A DNA stretch of 64,000 nucleotides from Polytrichum commune. Its lineage: Eukaryota; Streptophyta; Polytrichopsida; Polytrichales; Polytrichaceae. Under the pieces are notes generated by a model. It had not been told where the DNA came from, did not search any database, and worked only from the letters and a program-made list of their open reading frames with translations. This document shows, in pieces, positions 2,340 through 64,000 of this stretch. The position numbers and the translations under genes were made by a program. The stretch's first letter is position 1, and each line of letters begins with the position of its first letter. The DNA is taken from the NCBI GenBank assembly GCA_950295325.1, contig OX485808.1, forward strand, positions 26,866,527-26,930,526, given 5' to 3'.

Positions 2340-3715
2340 ATCGTCGCATAATTTTTTCGAAGACGTCAATTTTTTCGTAAGGTCGTCGCATACTCCGAAA
2401 GTAATGCGTCTTTTGTCCTTCAAAGAACAAATTGCCAGAGCTGCTATGCTGTGGTGATCTTTGGTTTTGTGTGACTTGCTGGTTAATACTTTATTCTTAT
2501 ACCTGTTACTTCGAAGAGCATACTGCACAATGGCAAAATTTATGGCGAATTGTAGCAGTCTGAGACTCTCATCAAAGAAGTAAAATTTCAAGGATTTTTC
2601 CTGATCTGACATGAATTGACGCCGTAATGTACAAATCGCCGAAAGTAACGCCAAATTTTGTCCTTCCAAGCACACATTTCGAGAGCAACTGGCAAACACA
2701 ACTGCTGTGATCTCGGTTCCGTAACTTGCGGCTCAGTAGTTATTCATGTGCCTGTTGCTTTGAAGAGCATTCAGGACAGTAGCAAAATTTGCGGCAAATT
2801 CTATATCGGCAGTGGAAGAGGGATGGCAAATTGCCATTGCCATGCCTGATGGAAGAGACTGTGCAGTACCCTGAGACTTCACATTGAAAATGTGAGATGA
2901 TAGGGATTTTTCCCTTATTCCGACATGAATTTGAGGCCGAAATGCACAATTCGCCGAGAGTAACGCATGTTTTGTCCTTCAAAGAACAATTGTCCAGAGC
3001 TGCTGGCGAACTTAAAATGATGTGTTCTTGGTTCTGTGTGGCTTGCTGGTCAGTACTTATTCAGTTGCCTGTTACTTCGAGGAGAATACACGACAGTGGA
3101 AAAATTTGTGGAAAATTCCATGTCTGCAGTGGAAGAGGAATAACAAATTGCCATATCCATGCCTGATGGAAGAAACTGTGCAGTACCCTAGGGTTCAATC
3201 TGGACTCAGGAACTTGGGACCTAGTGTCTTCCGAACTAGAGCAGTCTGAAATCTCATTGAAAATGTGAAAGGATGCTTTTGTTATTCCGACATGACACGA
3301 GGCCGAAATGCACAAATCGCCGATAGCAACGCATTTTTTGACCTTCAAAAAACAAATATCCAGAGCTGCTGGCGAAATTAAATGCTGTGCTCTTGGTTTT
3401 GTGTGACTTCCTGGTCAGCACTTATTCATGTGCCTGTCACTTCGAGGAGCATACAGGACAGCGGCAAAATTTGTTGCAGATTCTATGTCGGCAGTGCGAG
3501 ATGGCAAACTGCCATCGTCATGCCTGATGGAAGAGTTCGTGCAGTATCCTCGGGTTTTACCCATTTTCAGGAACTCGGGAGATATGTAGTATCTTCCGAA
3601 GCAAGAGTAGTGTGCAATTCGCATTGAAAGAATTAAAATGCATGGACGTTTTTTTCTCTTTATTCAGACATGTATTGATGCCGAGATTGCATAAATCGCC
3701 AGATCAATCAGCGCC
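2340..3715. repeat. Diverged tandem array, about four units
   Basis: The anchor ttttgtccttcaaagaac (with changes) occurs at 2411, 2656, 2970 and 3336, giving unit lengths of 245, 314 and 366 bp. Each unit repeats gcacaaatcgccgaaagtaa-like sequence, a tgtgacttgctggtcagtac block, a cttcgaggagcatacaggac block and, in the longer units, tggcaaattgccat and atgcctgatggaagag. Short plus-strand frames recur in units 2 and 3, but not in unit 1, so coding is not supported. Confidence 0.75.
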
Positions 3716-21170: not shown

Positions 21171-21199
21171 CGACATACATTTGTAATACGCAATGAAGT

Positions 21200-24100
21200 A
21201 CAATCCAAAAACATATGCAAGTGGATCATGGATTCGGGAGCCTCTAAGTACATGACTTCGCATAAGGCCGAATTTGACACGTATCAAATAATCATTTCAT
21301 GCAATGTGCATTTAGGTGATAATAACATTGTTCAGGCTATTGGAATGAGATCCATTATTGTGGAAGAAAACTTGGAAGGTGAAATCAACTTATTTCGTAT
21401 CAAATATTTTATCTACGTACATAATTTGCATGCCAATTTGCTATCGGTGAGCAAACTTGTGTCGAACGGTTTAAATGTCCAATTCAACATAAACGAATGT
21501 ATTGTCAAATTTTAGGATTGTACAGCCATTGTGATTGCGCCATACGAATGGAATTTGTACGAAATTAATTTTGTGAAGGTGTACGAAGCGGAAATGACCA
21601 ACTTTGTGTAATCTCTAGCGGTAGATGGCGCGCTCAAATTTTGGCACTACCGCCTTGGCTATTTGAACATGAAGGGTGTTCATACCCTCCAAAACATGGT
21701 GAGTGATATGAATCTTAAGAAAAAAAATTTGCCCCACATTTTTGTTGCTTTATGAAATGTGCATCGAAGATTAATAACATAGGGTTGTGTTTCTAAACGA
21801 GGGAGAAGAGGCGAATAACCAAGCCTTTGAAAATCGTGCATTTCAACGTGTATGGTCCCATGAGGACTATATTTATGGGCGGTGCAAGATATTTTATAAC
21901 TTTAATTGATGATTTTTCAAAGAAGGTGTGGTTGAATGTGTTGAAATCCAAAAGGGATTGCTTTGAGAAGTTCAAGGAGTTCAAGGCACTTGTAGAAATG
22001 CAATCGGAGTACGTAATCAAGACATTTTGGTCGGATAATGGTGGGGAGTTCGTTTTCAAGGCATTCAATCATTTTTTGAAGGATTATGGTATCGAGAAAC
22101 AAACGTCTACCCCATATACGCCTCAACAAAATGGAGCGGTGGAGCGTACGAATCATACCATCATGGAGATGACAAGGAGCATGTTTCATGCTTAAAACCT
22201 CGATAAATTGTTTTGGGCGGAAGCAATGATTAGTACTATTTATACGGAAAGTCGTTATCCAACAAGGGCATCGGATTTCATTACGCCCAAGAAAGCGTGG
22301 AGGGGAAGGAAACCTTGCATTGTACACATGCGTATATTTGGGTGTGTCGCCTACGCTATGGTGCCGAATGAACAAAAGGGTAAATTTGATGCAAATGGTA
22401 CAAAGTGTTTGTTTGTGGGTTAAAGTGAGGGGACTAAGCCTTATAGGCTAATGTGTTTACAAACCAAAAAGATCATAAAAAATAGAGATGTGGTATTCAT
22501 AAAGGATGACATGAGTGTTAAAAATGATTTGGGAATGTGTCCAAGGGGGAGGAAAAAAAATCCTATGGGACCTTCCAAATCATCTTCATATGATGATGGT
22601 GAGGAGTGAGAGGAACAAGTGGGAGATCATTTGGTTGCAAATGAGGAGGCAATTAAAATTCCCGTGAAGAATGACGGCCATGTTGAGAGATTCAACAAGG
22701 ATGGAAGATATCATAAGAGGGGTGGCATCTGCCCAGAGAGTGGTGGAGAAATCACATTTTACGCCAACACGGTGAAGAACTAGCCAATGTGACATTGTTG
22801 GATGATCATTTGAATTTGTGCGAAGCGTTGAGATCCGAAAATGCAAGTAAGTGGAAAGGCTGCAATGCAAGAGGAATATGACTTACTTATAGGCAATGAT
22901 ACGTGGAAATTGATCGAGCTTCCAAAGGATCGCAAGAATATAGGATGCAGATGGGTGTTCCACACTAAGAATAATTTATTGGATGAAATTGTTAGGTATA
23001 AGACACCGTTAGTAGAAAATGGATATTCTCAAATGGTTGGAGTGGATCTTAATGAGACCTTTGCTTCTGTGGCCAAATTTATCACCATTAGATGTATTTT
23101 TGCATTAGGAGCGGCCATGGATTGGGAGATCCATCAAATAAATGTAAATATGATGTTTTTGATAGAATATTGGAGGTGGAGATTTATATGGATTAACCGG
23201 ACAATTTCGTACAAGAGGGGAAAAAAAATCTGGTGTGTAAATCCAAGAAAGCTTTGTACGGGCTCAAGCAATCGCCAAGGACGTGGTACCACCACATCGA
23301 CTCATTAGTCATTAACGAGGGCTTTTGTAGGAGCCAAGTGGCTCAAATCGGAGCTCGAGAAGGAATTTGAGATGAGCGATCTCAGAGAATTACATTGTTG
23401 GCTAGGAGTGAAATTTGAGAAGAACAGAGAAGTTCGTACCATTACCATGAATCAAAGGAGCTACATCGCAGAGATCCTCAAGCATTTTAACATGGAGAGA
23501 TGCAAACCGGTTGGAAATCCATTCAATGTTAATTTAAAATTGTTAAAACTTTCGGATGAGGAATTTGTAAATGTGCAAAGGGAAATGGAACATGTTTCAT
23601 ACAAGGCCGGAGTAGGATCTCGCATGTATGCAATGGTGGCCACGAGGGCCGATATTGCATTTGCAATGAGTACGATGAGCTAATTCATGGCGAAGGATGA
23701 TCTTCCACATTGGATGGCCGTAGAACGCATCATAAGGAATTTGAAAGGCATTTTAGACTTCAATTTATGCCTCGGAGGCAAGGATATTGTCTTGAGAGTT
23801 TTTTGCAATGCGGAATGGGTGGGAGATGCAAACAAGGCGACCCACCACAAAGTATGTGTTTTTTTGTTGGCGTTGGAGTCATTTCGTGGAAATGCAAGAA
23901 ACAACCAACCATTGCATTGTCTACGACGGAGGCGGAGTACATGACTACTAGCCATTGTACTAAAGAAGCAGTTTGGCTTAGGCAACTTTTGGCGGATGTG
24001 GAATATGTGCAAGAAGGACCGACATCCATCATGTGTGACAATCAAGGATCGATGCATAACACTTGCAAAGAATCCCACACACCATTCTCGCACCAAACAT

Positions 24101-31582: not shown

Positions 31583-34500
31583 TTATGGCTTGGGATCTGC
31601 AGTCGGCAAGGGCGATTCCATGAGGGAACTCCACAAAATGTGATCTTGATGAAAACCATAATGTTGCGAGCTTTCATGTACTAGTACTTCGGCATCGTCG
31701 CGACCACCTTGCATTATATGATGGCCTTGGTAATGTAGTTCCTCCGAGGTTGAAGGTCTCGGTGGAATGGCCATGTTGGCCATGGAGTTGCTCAAGTTAA
31801 AGCTATGCTCGATCGCATCCGAATCGTTACACGTCAAGTTCGAGGTTACCGAGGGCCGTCGGCCTTCATCTTCCTCTTGATCTTCTTCTTCTTCTTCTTC
31901 CTCGTCTTCCTCTCCCTCTTCTTCTTGGCTTAGTTCGTCGCTCGTGGATCTCGTGGCACTCTCTCCCAATGTTTCTCGAAGCTGATCCGTCCACGACTTG
32001 TCACAAGAGATCACTGTGGCTTGAAGCTGATGATGTTCTCCATGAGATGCTAATTCATCGCTTCCGACACTGTCCAACTTTACATTCTCAGGTGATGGCG
32101 AAGGGAAATGATCTGGGGACAATAGAGCCGCCTCTTCCACCGGTCCGGTTTCGAATTCTTTTTTCAATGTTTGGGGGGTTTTCAGCTTCCGGGACCGGCT
32201 CCGGGGTTGCGAAGTGCTGGAGCACGTGTGTTGTCCAACATAAGTGACCTCGAACATGTTCGGATCCTGGTCCGTGGGTTGCACCATCTTCTTCGCGTTG
32301 CAATCCTTCATGCTGCATTTGTAATATCCCCTGCAATTATTTCCATGGTTACACAAAATTAAGTCGAGTTAAGTCCTAAATGCAGATAAGTGATAACTAA
32401 AGCAGATCTGTAAGCCCCTAGTATAGTAATTAACTGACATTCGAACACTTCAGACAAGTTTTAACACGCTCACAACAATTCACATGGAAAATTTCAAGGA
32501 GGCAATCAAGAAGGAGGGACATGCAGCCTAGGTTACAGATTTTCAACATCGTGTGATTTAGATACGATTGAACATAAAAGTCAAGGATTCTTTGCAACCT
32601 ACAGTGGTTACATGGGGCCCTCCAAAAGGAAATAGCGTTGAGAGTTGACTTTTTTGTCTCTACCTTAGCCAATGACTTGGTTTCGTTAATAAAAATTTTA
32701 GAGGAATATTGTAAGTAAATTCATTTCAAAGTACTTAACTACCCACTTTGAAAACCAATAATAGGAGTCCGACCCAATTGGGTCAATGAGGAAAATTGGG
32801 TGCTTCTATGTAACATGTTACGTACTCATAATCATCACTCTAGATGAATCTCCTGCTAGGGCATATTCGGTAAAGATTGTTCGATACACGCAAAGAAATA
32901 AGTTAGAAGCCTCAATTCCATCAATGACTCGATTCGGACATGTACTTTGTGGTCAACCACGCACCCATGAGTACTTCAAAGAGCACTTTGAATAATAGTT
33001 TACTAAGGATCAAGAGTGCCTCTCATTTGCTTGATATAGACTAAAAGTCAACGATCGTCACCATCCACTTTGGAAGGACCTATCTAACCACTTTAGATCA
33101 CCAAAAAACTTTAAAAACTGTAATAGATCGTATTTAAATTAGACGATATCCAAATTCCAGGAACTCAAGTGCATGAGAGTCATGCATCAGGTAAACTATT
33201 GAAACTTTTCCTGAAAATATTTGAGCATGTTAAGGATCTCAAGTGCTCAAATTGTCCATTATAGGCATGGGATAGGCATGTGCACCTTAATATTCTAGTA
33301 GGATATGGACAGATCAAAAACACACCTGCAGTAGTTGGAGTTGTGGATTGCCTTGTTGCCATACTTCTTCCACCCTCGATGGCCATCCTCCGGAATGCCC
33401 CTCTTGGAGTCACTGCCAGGCCTCAGAGGCTGAAAAACCACCACAAGCTTTGCATCTTCACCATTCAAGTCCCTGAATCCGAGGATCCAAAACCAGTCCA
33501 ATACCAAATGTTAACTTACAGAAGTCAACACACTTTTCACCATCATGTAGTTCCACTTCTTCTAAACACATGACGTGATCATTTTGATGTCTGCTCTTAG
33601 ATGCACGCCTAACCACACACTGGCCTCAAATATAGGTGCCAAATAGATGATAGTAGACTAGATCCCATCTAGATCCAAATTTCTCCAAGACTAGCCTGCT
33701 ACACGATGGCTTCTCAGTTCTTTTGGATTCCTCTAAATTAGCTGGTGATTTGCCTAATTTCTCGAACTAAACCAGCTCACTTGTAACTAACCACCGGATC
33801 TCCCCATTCTTAGTGTTCCATCAAGATAAGTAGTCAATTTTGACCCATCTACTTTCAATACCTTCAATTTTAAGCAACCTCTGGAGCACATCTAAGGAGC
33901 ACATGCATCAGCTTGTACACATTCTGCAGAAAGTCAAAATTGGTCAACTTCACGGGTAGGCAGGCAGTTCATCTGGACATGCTTCTTCTGAATAAAAGTG
34001 ACCTCTATATTAACCATAAACATTTATTGGTGACATGGGGTGAAAATGGTGAGCTACACACCTGTCACGTTTTTGGCCGCATTTTGACCGAAGTGCACGA
34101 GCAGCCACCGAATTCATGGTAAGATTAATACAAGCCTCATTCGTGCCACTTTTAGATGAGTCATCAACAAGTGATTTGCGCAGGTCGCCCAACTTCATTG
34201 GACAAGTTGAGGAGCTGTGGTGGGCAATATCGCTAATTGCTGTCATGGAGGTTGAACCGGGCAGGGTGGGTTCAGAAGGAATGCCAGCTGAAAGTTCGGC
34301 CACCATGTTCCAGTCAGAATCCAAACCTAATGCGGAATTCATCGAACTCGTGAAATTTTGGCCTTCCTGCAGACTCTCGACTGTTACATCGCCTGAAGAG
34401 CTCAGGATATTATTGTTCATGGGCTGTGCCGGCCGAGTTAATGCATCACGTTCACCTGCATATTAATTCTCCCGGCTGCCACAATTAGACAGTCCACTAG

Positions 34501-35556
34501 TACAGTACTCTGCCTATTGCAAGCTACTAGTAGTCTTGGAAAATTTCCTACTTCAGAACCCTGGGAATTAAAAGAAAATTAGTGCATTGCAGGGCATTTG
34601 GGCGTCTCCACTCTAAGGCCCTCATTGCACCAGAGCTCCAGATTTTGCCCCAAGAGTTTGTCTAAACCGACCAAGAGACCAATGGATCCCTCAAAACAAT
34701 ACGATCCCTCTAAACGTTGTAAACCTGGTGAATGTATTCAAGCTCTCAAGTTAACGCGCAAGTGTAAAGTGGAGTTGGATGAACGAGGCGCCATGTCATA
34801 AGAGGCTCCCTGCCGCCAACTAGAAGGCTCCTTTCTTCAATCTTTGAGCTCTCAAACTCTCAATCTCACTATCTGTATAAAGGGGGCCTGAGGCCCTAAT
34901 TAAGATCTCCGGGTACTTGAGAGAAAAGATGACCAATATGGAATCTGTTGCAAATTAGTACCTGTAATTTGCACTGGAGCAGGGAACTGTTGATTAGTCA
35001 TATTGTCACCAAATAAGAAGCTTCTGGGGCTCCACAAGGTGGCGACACCACTGCCCTGCATCAAATTATTAGATCCTGCTGGTGTGGGTGGGTTCCATTG
35101 CTGTGGATTAACATGCAGAGGGCTCAAAGGAGTCGGCAACTTCAACCTTGGAGAAGCATTTGCAGAAGGAGCTTTCAAGTTGATCAGCTTCCCCCTTGAC
35201 ATCAATTTAGAGGAAGAATCGTTTGAGGAATTATTATTAGCGTGCAAAATTATCTCCTTGAGGCGGCAGAGGGCTAAGTGGCACCAGTCCATGGAATCCT
35301 CCAGCTTGGCTTTCAGGGCTCTCACCAAAGGGAGGGAGATTGTGTCCACAGCCATCATATTGTCTCCTCCACCTTGCATTGAGTTAGCCTCACTTTCTGG
35401 TGAATGGATCATCAGCAAAGCCCATAGATCCTCTTGCTTCAGAATAGCTCTGCTCAACATCTCCTCTACCTTCTGCACACTCTGGGTGGAATTAGCCCAT
35501 TGACCCCCCCTCTGAATTCTTCCCATGCCTTGACCCAAGGTATTCCCCCCCTCCAT
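31583..35556 (-). CDS. WRKY transcription factor, atypical group III-like, 4 coding exons, 627 aa
   Basis: Coding exons on the minus strand are 35556-34962, 34455-34062, 33472-33326 and 32330-31583. All introns are GT-AG, phases (1, 2, 2) join in one frame, and the total is 627 codons plus stop. An in-frame TAA lies 18 bases before the ATG. Residues 360-415 form a WRKY DNA-binding domain: the heptad is WKKYGNK (364-370) instead of WRKYGQK, and the zinc ligands are C384, C389, H413 and C415. The last intron falls before GYYKC, splitting an Arg codon, which is the conserved R-type WRKY intron site. The NMFEVTYVGQHTC end resembles group III. The N-terminal third is helical and Ser/Asn-rich. A basic stretch (422-436) could be a nuclear signal, and residues 513-534 are almost all Glu/Asp. 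WRKY proteins bind W-boxes; with this heptad, binding may differ. Exon choice is inference, but very well constrained. Confidence 0.88.
33735..33812 (+). repeat. Partial CCGGTT-family repeat in WRKY intron 2
   Basis: The stretch ctcgaactaaaccagctcac, then ttgtaactaaccaccggatc and tcccc, matches the 3' end of copies A and B. It lies wholly in an intron, so it does not touch coding sequence. Confidence 0.5.
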
Positions 35557-35604: not shown

Positions 35605-35746
35605 CTGAAACATACACAATGATCAATTCAATGTCAACCCGAATTGTAAGAATTACGAAGCCACATAATAAGCCATCTCAGAGGTCATGAAACGAAAATA
35701 GGTAGTATGGCATGAATTCGGTGGGTTTCTGTAACTCCGTGGCTAG

Positions 35747-35839
35747 ACTAAGGGAGAGAGGACACCACGTCCTCGTACGTGCATAATTTGTACATTTTCG
35801 GTAGTGATGCCGAAAGGAAGGTGTCCTCTCTCCCTTAGT
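35747..35839. repeat. Perfect 20-bp inverted repeat upstream of WRKY
   Basis: Arms 35747-35766 and 35820-35839 are exact reverse complements (actaagggagagaggacacc and its complement) separated by 53 bases. Part of the right arm recurs in the second unit of the local tandem duplication. It may form a stem in the transcript leader or be the end of a small element. Confidence 0.7.
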
Positions 35840-35916
35840 TGTCCTGAACTCTACTCTTACGATAAGGCACGGAGGGAGCTACAAATTGGCAGATCAGAGG
35901 TAATAGAGTTGAGGAA

Positions 35917-35947
<31 letters not shown>

Positions 35948-36302
35948 GCGTGCTTCCCCTCCTGCCAAGGTGGCTCAAGGTTAGGAGGTTAACTTGCCTA
36001 ATTCTCAAACGAATACACACTCCAAAGGTGTGGTGAATTGTCGCAATACCACGTAACATGAATTTCTCGTAGACACGTCTGCTTTTCACATCACGCTGTG
36101 CTGCAGAGAGGAAGGGTGTCCTCTTATCCTGAGCTCCACTCTTGGCGGTTAAGATAAGACACGGGGGAAGCAAAGAGGCTACAAAGAGGCCGTGAGATAC
36201 TAGAGCTGAGCACTGGGTGTCTCTCTCTCACAGGATGAGTGCTTGCTTCCTCTCCTGTCACGGCTCATGGTTGGGACGTTAACGTGCCTAATTATCACAG
36301 TA
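35812..36302. repeat. Diverged tandem duplication (about 290-295 bp period) upstream of WRKY
   Basis: Unit A (about 35812-36010) and unit B (about 36105-36302) share a series of matching blocks in order: ggtgtcctct, a ctctactctt/ctccactctt block, ataaggcacgg/ataagacacgg, a CT-repeat (26 bases in A, shorter in B), gtgcttgcttcc-type sequence, and ttaac(t/g)tgcctaatt. Offsets between units are 290-295 bp. On the minus strand the CT run reads as a (GA)n tract, common in plant promoters and leaders, so this duplication probably lies in the WRKY promoter or 5' leader. Confidence 0.65.
35917..35943. repeat. (CT)n microsatellite
   Basis: An uninterrupted CT dinucleotide run of about 13 units, (GA)n in the direction of WRKY transcription. 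Confidence 0.9.
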
Positions 36303-39300
36303 CGCAATTGGTCCCGAATCGTAACAAAATTCACTCGATTCGCACCTGCTTTATATAAATGTCTAAACCAAGTGATGATTCCTGAAGTGGAGGCAGATTC
36401 AATCGAAGTTCTACGGACTCGATTGCTTATTGCAGTAAAGGCCAGTAAAACCAGATTTGAGGATTGATCGGTCGATCAGCTGTCCAGCACACTAAGATCA
36501 ACTTGTACATATGAACCTGTCAGACAATCTTCCCGACGTTGTAACTGCCTCTGCACACTCACCATGCATTTATGGCATATTTATTCACATCAACATCGGA
36601 ACCTCACTGATCTATAAGGCCGATCACTGCCATCACAAAATGTTTGGACTAATACTGGGTACCGCTATTGCTCCTACTACTAGTACTACTTCAAGAACGG
36701 CATTCCCCACGCTTGCAGGCTCTCTGATGTCCACAAATCCAAATGGCGGTTTTCTTGTTGTCTCTGAGTCTCAGCTTTGTGTTTCTCTGCTCTCGTGGCT
36801 CTACCCAACGCCACCGCCAAGCGATTGATTTGACTATTTCTTACCCAACCTAGCTAGATGAGGCATTCCCCATCAAACCTATGAAACTAGAATTGATGCG
36901 CTAGCTAGCTAGCTAGCTAGCTTATAGGTACTGCATACCAATTTCTAAGTCCACCCTGGACCCCACACAGGATGGTGAAAGCGTAGAGAACTGTTCTAGA
37001 GCGCATAAATTACACTATACCACTTAATGATTTGACTGCAGAAGAAACCTCTGAGACTCAGATTAGTCGGTCGGATTGAACCGGCGTTAATCTGGAAGGG
37101 TTTTGACTAGAGCCACTACATGCACCATATACTACACAAAGTACCCCAAGCTTTTGCATTCCGATTTCTAATCCGTCCTTGGACCCCACATGCTCATGTT
37201 GACTGCTGCTGCTGCTGCTGCTACACCTCAGCACCACCGCGGAGTTGCGAATAAAGTCGCCTCCTGACACATGAAAATGTGGGCAAAAAAACACGTGATT
37301 TGCTTCGGATTACCCCAAAGCGAAAGGAGGGGAGGCCCCGAAGGCCAGGGGGAGCTTGCAGTCTGTTGCCTTATTTTATTGGTTTTTGGTGCCAGGAATC
37401 TGCTTTTCTTTGAAGCTGTCACAGTCTGCTTCGCTCGCACGCTCGATGGTGCAAAACAACCGAAAAAAAACTAGTCAAAATCGGATCGTTCAAACCTCGG
37501 ATGCATACTAGATAGGTGGATATAAATAGTGGGAGCACAAGTACTAATGTTGTACGTAGCCCTCCACATAACATTATTAAGAAGTGTGCGTTCATTCGTT
37601 CATGTGGGCCCTGAAAATCTAACCATGGGATGCCCCAACCTAGTGCAAGGAGACACTCATGCCCCAATCACACCAAACTTTCCGTCCGGTTCCAACTTTG
37701 AAATTGTTGGGGATTATGTTCAGAAATAGATGTTGGCCCACCACTTTTCACACTATTACAGTCGGAGATGCCGACAGATGGTGTCAAAATTGGCCGATGT
37801 GATCAACCCCTCAGATTAAACCTTGCACAAGGTTGGAGAATCCCATGGTTATATTCTCAGGGGCCATATGAACAAACACACATCGCTTAATGATGCTATG
37901 TGTGGACTCCACATACAATTTGGACTGTCATATCAAATCAAGAATCGCCTCATTCAGTTAGCAATTGTAAATTGTGCGTATTGTCATTTTGAAGTTTAAG
38001 AATCGGGGCTGAGAAAGCAAAAGGTAGAGGAGGTCAAAACAAACTTGAGTCTCATCTTTAAAGAATCACAATGCAGGCCCTCTCAGGTTTGTTAGCTCCT
38101 AAACCGAGTTCCATTAACTCTCTTTTGGCTTACATGTTGAACATAGTGCAATCTCATCGTAACACATCTCCTTGTAGTGAATGTTCTTAGATTCAGGTAT
38201 TGCCTTATTCCACTCATATACAGGCGTCCAATTAAGAATAGTGACCTTAAAAGACCCACACACGTTAATTTTGCTTTTCACACCACTTGAGGCAAATCAA
38301 AGTTGTGATTAATGTGTATTAACTAACTAAGTCATCTGACAACCTGGTGAAAGGGTTCATCCAAGTTCATGAATGATTGTGATAATTAGTGTAGCCACAT
38401 TAATTTCTAACTCCATGGCATATTTATGTGCAAGTTACTTGTGTGTCAAACTGTGTGCAGAGGAATAGTTTGCCACATCCAAATAACATGCCTTGTGTTT
38501 GAAACTTTGTCAATGCTCAGGCAACACGTTGGATATATATGAAAGTGACTCCAAACAAAATTGGCAGATGTGACAGAAGGGGACAAGACAGTCGTCAAGG
38601 AGCCGTCCCATGTGACAAGATGGGGATGAAAGTATGTGTTTTTTTTAGAACCGGTGGATCATTAACCCTTAACTTCCTAGAGCATGTTGTGGTTTCATTA
38701 GAACATTTAGAAAGTAAGCTTTCTAGAGCTCAATTTATATTACCTAAGAGAAAAGTTAATTATTGCTAATGATTTTAGGATCTCATCAGTACTGTAGCAA
38801 TATTTAGTAGTTCTCATGAATTGGTTATAATGAATTAAGAATCATTAAACTACAAGAACTTGTGGTAAATAATTGCCAAAAAAAAAAAAAAGTCCGAACT
38901 TTCAAGATTATACTAAGATCAGATATACAGTTTGAGATAGTTTATAGAAAACTGACAAATTTCAATCAATATGATATGAAGTTATTATATATAATAACAT
39001 GCCAACAAAAAGGAAAAGTTAGGTCATTTTTTACTTTTAAAGTTATTTGAGAACAATCATTTTTTTCATATTGGAATGGCATCATCGCCATTGACAAGAA
39101 AATCCCATGAGGAACACAAGGATTCCTAGTGTGACCTTCCTAGCACCTTCCTTTTGGATGAATTTTCCTTCAAGAGTCATTCATAAGCCCAAAACAAGAC
39201 TCTCGGGAAGTTAAAGATTAAAGACAGCTGGGAAAACCAATTAGCCGGATTTCCTTTCCTTCTTTGGGTCGATCCGTTGAGCTAAGGTGGAGTGATTTGA

Positions 39301-63074: not shown

Positions 63075-63311
63075 ATCCATATATTTCTTTGCTCATTTGG
63101 AATCGTGGGACCATTGGTCATAATTCTCTGCAAATTTGTTGTGATCACCACATTAGAGCACACGGTGAATTGAGTGACTAGAGAACCAACAATCAAACCT
63201 CAACATCTACTAGAAGAATTATTTAGCAATTTACCTTCAAATTTTGAAACAAATCCTGGGATTTTTGAGTGCTCATTTGGGGGAATGGTTTGGCAAAAAT
63301 AGGTACTTCCA

Positions 63312-64000
63312 ATGGCAAGTAAATCCACGCGCAAACGAGTAGATTTATCAACCTCTGATAAGAGGAAAATTTGTGAAGTCCACAAAGCTCATCCAGGTTT
63401 GAAACATGAAGACCTTGCACAGTATATGGTGGATCAACATAAATTCAAGCTTGTGGATCGGACCACTATTTCCAAGATTCTTCGTTCAAAAGAGAAGTGG
63501 ATGAACATGGATACATGTGTGCGTGAAGGCAATGTACGACGCGCTCGAGTTGGAAAATGGCCTCAGCTTGAAAAAGCTTTGGTTTTATGGTTTGGACAGG
63601 TCAGAGCACGGAGGGGAGTAGTAACTGATGATGTCATTATGCAAAAGGCTAAGGAATTGAGGGATTCATTTGGCATATCTGATACCGAGTTCAAACTTTC
63701 TCATGGGTGGTTGCAAAATTTCAAAACTCGACATGGAATAAAGTGTTATTATCTGCATGGAGAAAGTGGAGATGCAGATGGAGTTGGAGTTGCATTGGCC
63801 ATAGCAAAGATCCCATTCATATTGAAGAAATATGATCCAAAAGACATCTTCAATTTTGATGAGACAGGTTTGTATTATAGAGCCTCTCCTTATAAGACTT
63901 TGAATATTGGGAAGGCGAAAGGAAATAAGAAAAAGAAGGACCGTGTGACATTGGGGCTTTGCACTAATATCTCAGGGAAGGAGCGATTGAAGCTTGTTTT
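63312..64000 (+). CDS. Tigger/pogo-family transposase, open to the window edge (3' part outside)
   Basis: From ATG 63312 the frame stays open for 229 codons to the window end, with an in-frame TAG 12 bases upstream. Residues 10-62 form a CENP-B-type N-terminal helix-turn-helix (DKRKICEVHKAHPGLKHEDL, then VDRTTISKILRSKEKW). Residues 77-145 form the second DNA-binding domain (Tc5/CENP-B type) with LVLWFGQVRARRGVVTDD and LSHGWLQNFKTRHGIK. The DDE catalytic domain starts near 165, with FNFDETGLYYR carrying the first catalytic Asp (183), then KKKKDRVTLGLCTNISGKER. Family members cut and paste at TA sites. No lesion is visible in the part seen, in contrast to every other transposase here, so this copy may be young or have been kept for another use. 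CENP-B-like domesticated genes share this architecture and cannot be excluded. Confidence 0.85.
   Translation, partial: MASKSTRKRVDLSTSDKRKICEVHKAHPGLKHEDLAQYMVDQHKFKLVDRTTISKILRSKEKWMNMDTCVREGNVRRARVGKWPQLEKALVLWFGQVRARRGVVTDDVIMQKAKELRDSFGISDTEFKLSHGWLQNFKTRHGIKCYYLHGESGDADGVGVALAIAKIPFILKKYDPKDIFNFDETGLYYRASPYKTLNIGKAKGNKKKKDRVTLGLCTNISGKERLKLV

Follow-up and report, generated by a model that had tools for sequence, protein, structure and literature searches.

A complete single-domain WRKY gene with the heptad WKKYGNK and a mixed zinc finger, probably of the moss Group III-like kind

The stretch of 64,000 nucleotides that was analysed here as a whole, called the window below, carries on its minus strand a complete and intact gene for a single-domain WRKY protein. 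This gene probably encodes a Group III-lineage transcription factor that belongs with the moss Group III-like proteins PpWRKY35-38 and would have retained a W-box-like binding with a retuned affinity. Many Group III WRKYs are immune regulators in flowering plants, and the origin of the group is disputed between moss Group III-like genes, an angiosperm-only origin and an ancestor common with groups IId and IIe. In the relevant statements of the literature, a paper on retrograde signalling describes Group III as exclusive to angiosperms, and another published view gives it a shared ancestor with IId and IIe. The gene would contradict an angiosperm-only Group III if its plant is no angiosperm. 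Its product is a candidate intermediate, which joins the phylogenetic signal of Group III and an H-X-C end to a first spacing of group I length and a moss heptad, and its DNA preference lends itself to a direct comparison with that of WRKYGQK domains.

The gene model starts at 35556 and stops at 31583, so that the span 31583-35556 given in the earlier note matches the stop and start codons exactly. Its four exons (35556-34962, 34455-34062, 33472-33326 and 32330-31583, joined on the minus strand, with a sum divisible by three) amount to 1884 nt and 627 amino acids; GT-AG borders are present at all three introns, each of which contains stops in all frames. The start ATG occupies 35556-35554; five codons upstream of it stands a TAA in the same frame. 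The features of the gene and of its protein are the following:

34962 to 35556, minus strand: exon 1, residues 1-198 and the first base of codon 199, donor GTACTAATTT
35221 to 35493, minus strand: two predicted long helices, residues 22-112, from a single-sequence model of low confidence
34062 to 34455, minus strand: exon 2, acceptor ending in AATATGCAG, donor GTGTGTAGCT
33326 to 33472, minus strand: exon 3, DLNGEDAKLVVVF...EDGHRGWKKYGNKAIHNSNYC and the first two bases of Arg 379, acceptor ending in GATTCAG, donor GTGTGTTTTT
33352 to 33372, minus strand: variant heptad WKKYGNK, residues 364-370, with EDGHRG before it
32331 to 33325, minus strand: intron 3, at the PR-intron site, codon of Arg 379 split AG/G
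32222 to 32317, minus strand: zinc ligands C384-X4-C389-X23-H413-X-C415, residues 384-415
31583 to 32330, minus strand: exon 4, with the zinc half of the WRKY domain, the basic tail RSRSRKLK, the acidic run and the stop TAA
31862 to 31924, minus strand: acidic run, residues 515-535, 18 of 21 being Asp or Glu

At its 3' end, exon 2 encodes a basic segment, SKCGQKRD, together with two bases of the Arg 330 codon, and retention of intron 3 leads to a stop ten codons further on. The PR intron lies in the Arg codon, which places intron 3 at the PR-intron site. An intron at this Arg codon, ahead of the zinc half, agrees with Group III and is not specific to it: Rinerson et al. (2015, PMC4350883) describe the PR intron, and a figure legend there gives it as common to groups I, IIc, IId and IIe. 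Near the start, the sequence TGTATGTTTCAG (35605-35616, minus strand) resembles by eye a 3' splice site, and the gene may have an intron in its 5' UTR.

The only Pfam match above the cut-off in the 627 residues is the WRKY domain (PF03106), with 70.3 bits for a gathering cut-off of 21 and an E-value of 1.6e-19; it covers residues 359-415 and positions 2-58 of the 59 of the profile. This single WRKY stretch is what Group III presents. Since the best solved relative, OsWRKY45, also matches with an E-value of 1.7e-13, chance does not explain the WRKY identity. Inside the domain, the heptad is not WRKYGQK but WKKYGNK, as the earlier note had read it, and published work accepts heptad variants in the family. 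The other peculiarities claimed there are borne out as well: EDGHRG is one residue longer than the DGxxW found before the Trp in solved WRKY domains, CR stands in place of PR at residues 378-379, and the zinc ligands at 384-415 form the hybrid C-X4-C-X23-H-X-C. The C2HC finger with its H-X-C end (H413-T-C415) is that of Group III, whereas the first spacing is C-X4-C instead of the C-X7-C of this group, and we therefore file the gene as Group III-like rather than as Group III proper. A different splicing that would restore WRKYGQK can be discarded within the window, since the heptad lies entirely in exon 3 and a six-frame scan for W[RK]KYG or WxKYG gave no second match.

Outside the domain, the acidic run announced earlier does exist, with a length of 21 residues and not of 22. 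The run falls on a CTT/AAG trinucleotide repeat (31864-31926), and a part of its length may thus be due to repeat slippage rather than to selection. For residues 22-112, the best of the models reached a mean pLDDT of 68.0 with a pTM of 0.40, the remaining four lying between 43.6 and 48.3.

The placement among the WRKY groups was studied by similarity and by phylogeny. Among the solved domains, the top phmmer score is that of the Group III protein OsWRKY45 (54.8 bits), followed at 2.1 bits by the IId protein GhWRKY17 (52.7 bits), while raw identity slightly favours IId, with 30/60 for GhWRKY17 versus 26/56 for OsWRKY45. Maximum-likelihood trees were built with 11 rows, namely the window protein and 10 solved WRKY domains, over 60 columns, or 38 after masking of all columns up to and including the heptad, of the inter-cysteine loop and of the HXC end. 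The grouping of the window protein with Group III obtained a support of 99/97 with 8 rows, of 93/94 with 11 rows and of 97/96 with 11 rows and the variant columns masked, which is the phylogenetic position of Group III with respect to these 10 references. A clade with IId was rejected by the AU test both with the variant columns (p 0.021) and without them (p 0.011). The branch joining the window protein to OsWRKY45 alone is weak (81/77 with 11 rows), and an arrangement in which the two angiosperm Group III rows stand together without it is not rejected (p 0.186). From these two results, the window protein may sit outside the angiosperm Group III, as expected of a moss-type gene.

How such a domain would meet DNA can be estimated from mutants of solved proteins. 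Alanine mutants of GhWRKY17 are published in which binding is abolished at Y252, Q254, K255, R264, Y266, Y267 and R278 and nearly abolished at W249, R250, K251 and P256. By reading of the alignment, 7 of these 11 residues are identical in the window protein (W249, K251, Y252, K255, R264, Y266 and Y267), three are replaced conservatively (R250K, Q254N and R278K) and one is different (P256A). Both the heptad Tyr and its second Lys, termed crucial to W-box recognition in the published description, are kept. The replacement of the heptad Gln by Ala is reported to kill binding in GhWRKY17 and in AtWRKY1-N and to be tolerated in AtWRKY1-C. Given the contact residues kept and this tolerance, binding to a TGAC core with a changed strength or flank taste seems the likeliest behaviour, and a changed specificity or affinity for DNA, as first proposed from the heptad, is plausible. 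In the mechanism that we propose, the protein would enter the nucleus through its basic stretches and insert the strand bearing WKKYGNK into the major groove. The TGAC-core W-box would then be read by the residues retained in the heptad, Lys-Tyr-Gly and the final Lys, together with the Arg and the Tyr-Tyr of the next strand. The exchanges of R to K and of Q to N would shift the affinity or the flank preference and would not abolish binding; the acidic run toward the C-terminus may serve activation.

Other explanations can account for a part of these data. The protein could be a WRKY neofunctionalised in its own lineage, with a new DNA specificity, distinct from the W-box, that would result from the altered heptad and finger. 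The Arg and the Gln of the heptad contact DNA in solved complexes, AtWRKY11 and AtWRKY50 are described in a review as trading their binding behaviour upon a single Q/K exchange, and the window protein shows in addition an extra residue ahead of the Trp and the loss of Pro at two sites (P256A, and CR instead of PR) that neighbour DNA contacts. We nevertheless consider this unlikely: K for R and N for Q are conservative substitutions, the Tyr and second Lys crucial for the W-box are retained with the Arg, Tyr and Tyr of the next strand, and a heptad described as conserved across four moss proteins points to an old character and not to a newly drifting one. We give little credence to an origin from a Group IId/IIe-type WRKY whose HXC end was gained through one substitution. 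GhWRKY17 is indeed the closest protein by raw identity, and GYYKCS and the short spacing of the cysteines resemble IId and I, but the AU test rejects the IId clade whether the variant columns are in or out, and the end is HTC where IId has H-X-H. The motif GHARF or HARFR is characteristic of IId proteins, and a scan of the window protein for these two strings found neither.

Even less credible to us is a decaying gene or a non-DNA-binding decoy in which the fold would be kept and the binding to the W-box lost. Several residues that are invariant or nearly so among the solved domains are altered together, and alanine at some of the altered sites deprives GhWRKY17 of binding in the published mutants. 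The four exons are however open with GT-AG introns, all four zinc ligands are retained, and a match to a heptad conserved in mosses is not expected of a decaying gene. The preferred reading thus remains that of an intact Group III-like factor of moss type with a retuned W-box-like binding. A more far-reaching scenario, possible in our opinion and on the whole rather doubtful, is that the protein has kept the ancestral finger of Group III: the H-X-C end would have arisen through a change of the last His to Cys while the spacing was still C-X4, the C-X7 loop and WRKYGQK known from Group III of vascular plants would have come later or been regained, and the K/N heptad would mark an old non-vascular branch with a DNA preference of its own.

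W-boxes were also counted in the gene itself and upstream of it. The introns concerned are these:

32331 to 34061, both strands counted: introns 2 and 3, with five W-boxes (TTGACY) each, a weak and post hoc observation

The three introns contain 10 W-boxes (0, 5 and 5) versus 3.1 expected (P 0.0015, for a region picked after seeing the counts), and the scan statistic is 0.2, 0.022 and 0.056 for 1, 1.5 and 2 kb, respectively. The best of 59 motifs of the same composition reaches 9 in the W-box-rich intron stretch. In the 2 kb upstream of the gene there are 5 W-boxes versus 3.0 expected, with none in the first 1 kb. Autoregulation through these boxes might be considered, as a lead only.

The surroundings of the gene present several repeats and remains of mobile elements. 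A perfect inverted repeat of 20 nt (ACTAAGGGAGAGAGGACACC) with a spacer of 53 nt is located at 35747-35839 and begins some 190 nt ahead of the start codon. The folding energy of the minus strand of 35740-35846 is -52.3 kcal/mol (z -7.9), and the repeat may represent a small hairpin element or give rise to a hairpin RNA. Upstream of the gene, 35839-36000 and 36124-36290 form a diverged direct duplication, with a local score of 83, where 200 shuffled versions of one copy score 25 at most, in a comparison for which the stretch ended at 36000. Two inverted arms of 56 nt (37595-37650 and 37821-37876, 86% complementary, 170 nt between them) possibly belong to a small MITE-like transposon. Farther away, a degraded element of Ty1/copia type at 21171-23305 shows Pol_BBD (21171-21512) and RVT_2 (22832-23305) in separate plus-strand frames, a frame for a Tc5/pogo-like transposase (63303-63998, HTH_Tnp_Tc5, E 1.3e-15) begins and is open at the end of the window, and a tandem duplication occupies 2592-3189 (period of 317 bp, 1.9 copies, 80% matches). 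Of 282 stop-to-stop frames of at least 60 residues, 10 chosen by eye were scanned with Pfam, and the 3 that matched were all transposon parts. Neither a tRNA nor an Rfam match at the gathering score came out of scans of the window.

Among the known systems, the window protein probably belongs with the moss proteins. A scan of IMG/VR for relatives gave 6 stretches that fit a pattern, none of which was confirmed. The heptad WKKYGNK is already published and hence not new, with two papers containing it among those searched: a figure legend of Rinerson et al. (2015, PMC4350883) gives it as the conserved heptad of the Group III proteins PpWRKY35-38 of Physcomitrella, and the introduction of another article (PMC5453597) mentions it as occurring in some members. 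Section 9 of the former paper swaps the moss and the fungal heptads with respect to its own legend; we read this as a slip, since in section 6 the text and the legend alike give WKNNGNT as the fungal motif. Because WKKYGNK was published for four moss proteins, the altered heptad looks like a lineage character and not like an isolated change. The same paper states that moss Group III-like genes have features that the Group III genes of more advanced plants lack, and that the finger and the signature of the spike moss are already like those of flowering plants.

The zinc pattern C-X4-C-X23-H-X-C is printed for the peanut protein AhWRKY71 and for Group III of strawberry and Arabis (PMC7144997, PMC4854424, PMC10649556), and it appears as a general definition in one further paper; the general definition of Group III in the strawberry and Arabis papers may be loosely written. 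In contrast with the probable moss type of the window protein, these are angiosperm proteins. The IId proteins GhWRKY17 (9m0k) and AtWRKY11 (8iex) share with it RGYYKCS, a short cysteine spacing and 30/60 and 29/61 identical residues, and differ by C-X5-C, an H-X-H end and the rejected clade. OsWRKY45 (Group III, PDB 6ir8) resembles it by the H-X-C end, the tree position, NS in the loop that follows the heptad and the end VTYxGxHTC, and differs by WRKYGQK, C-X7-C, PK where the window protein has CR, and the lack of the extra residue. Finally, PpWRKY35-38 of Physcomitrella patens have WKKYGNK and the Group III class in common with the window protein, a likeness based on this shared heptad and class and on the published remark about the difference from later Group III rather than on a sequence alignment.
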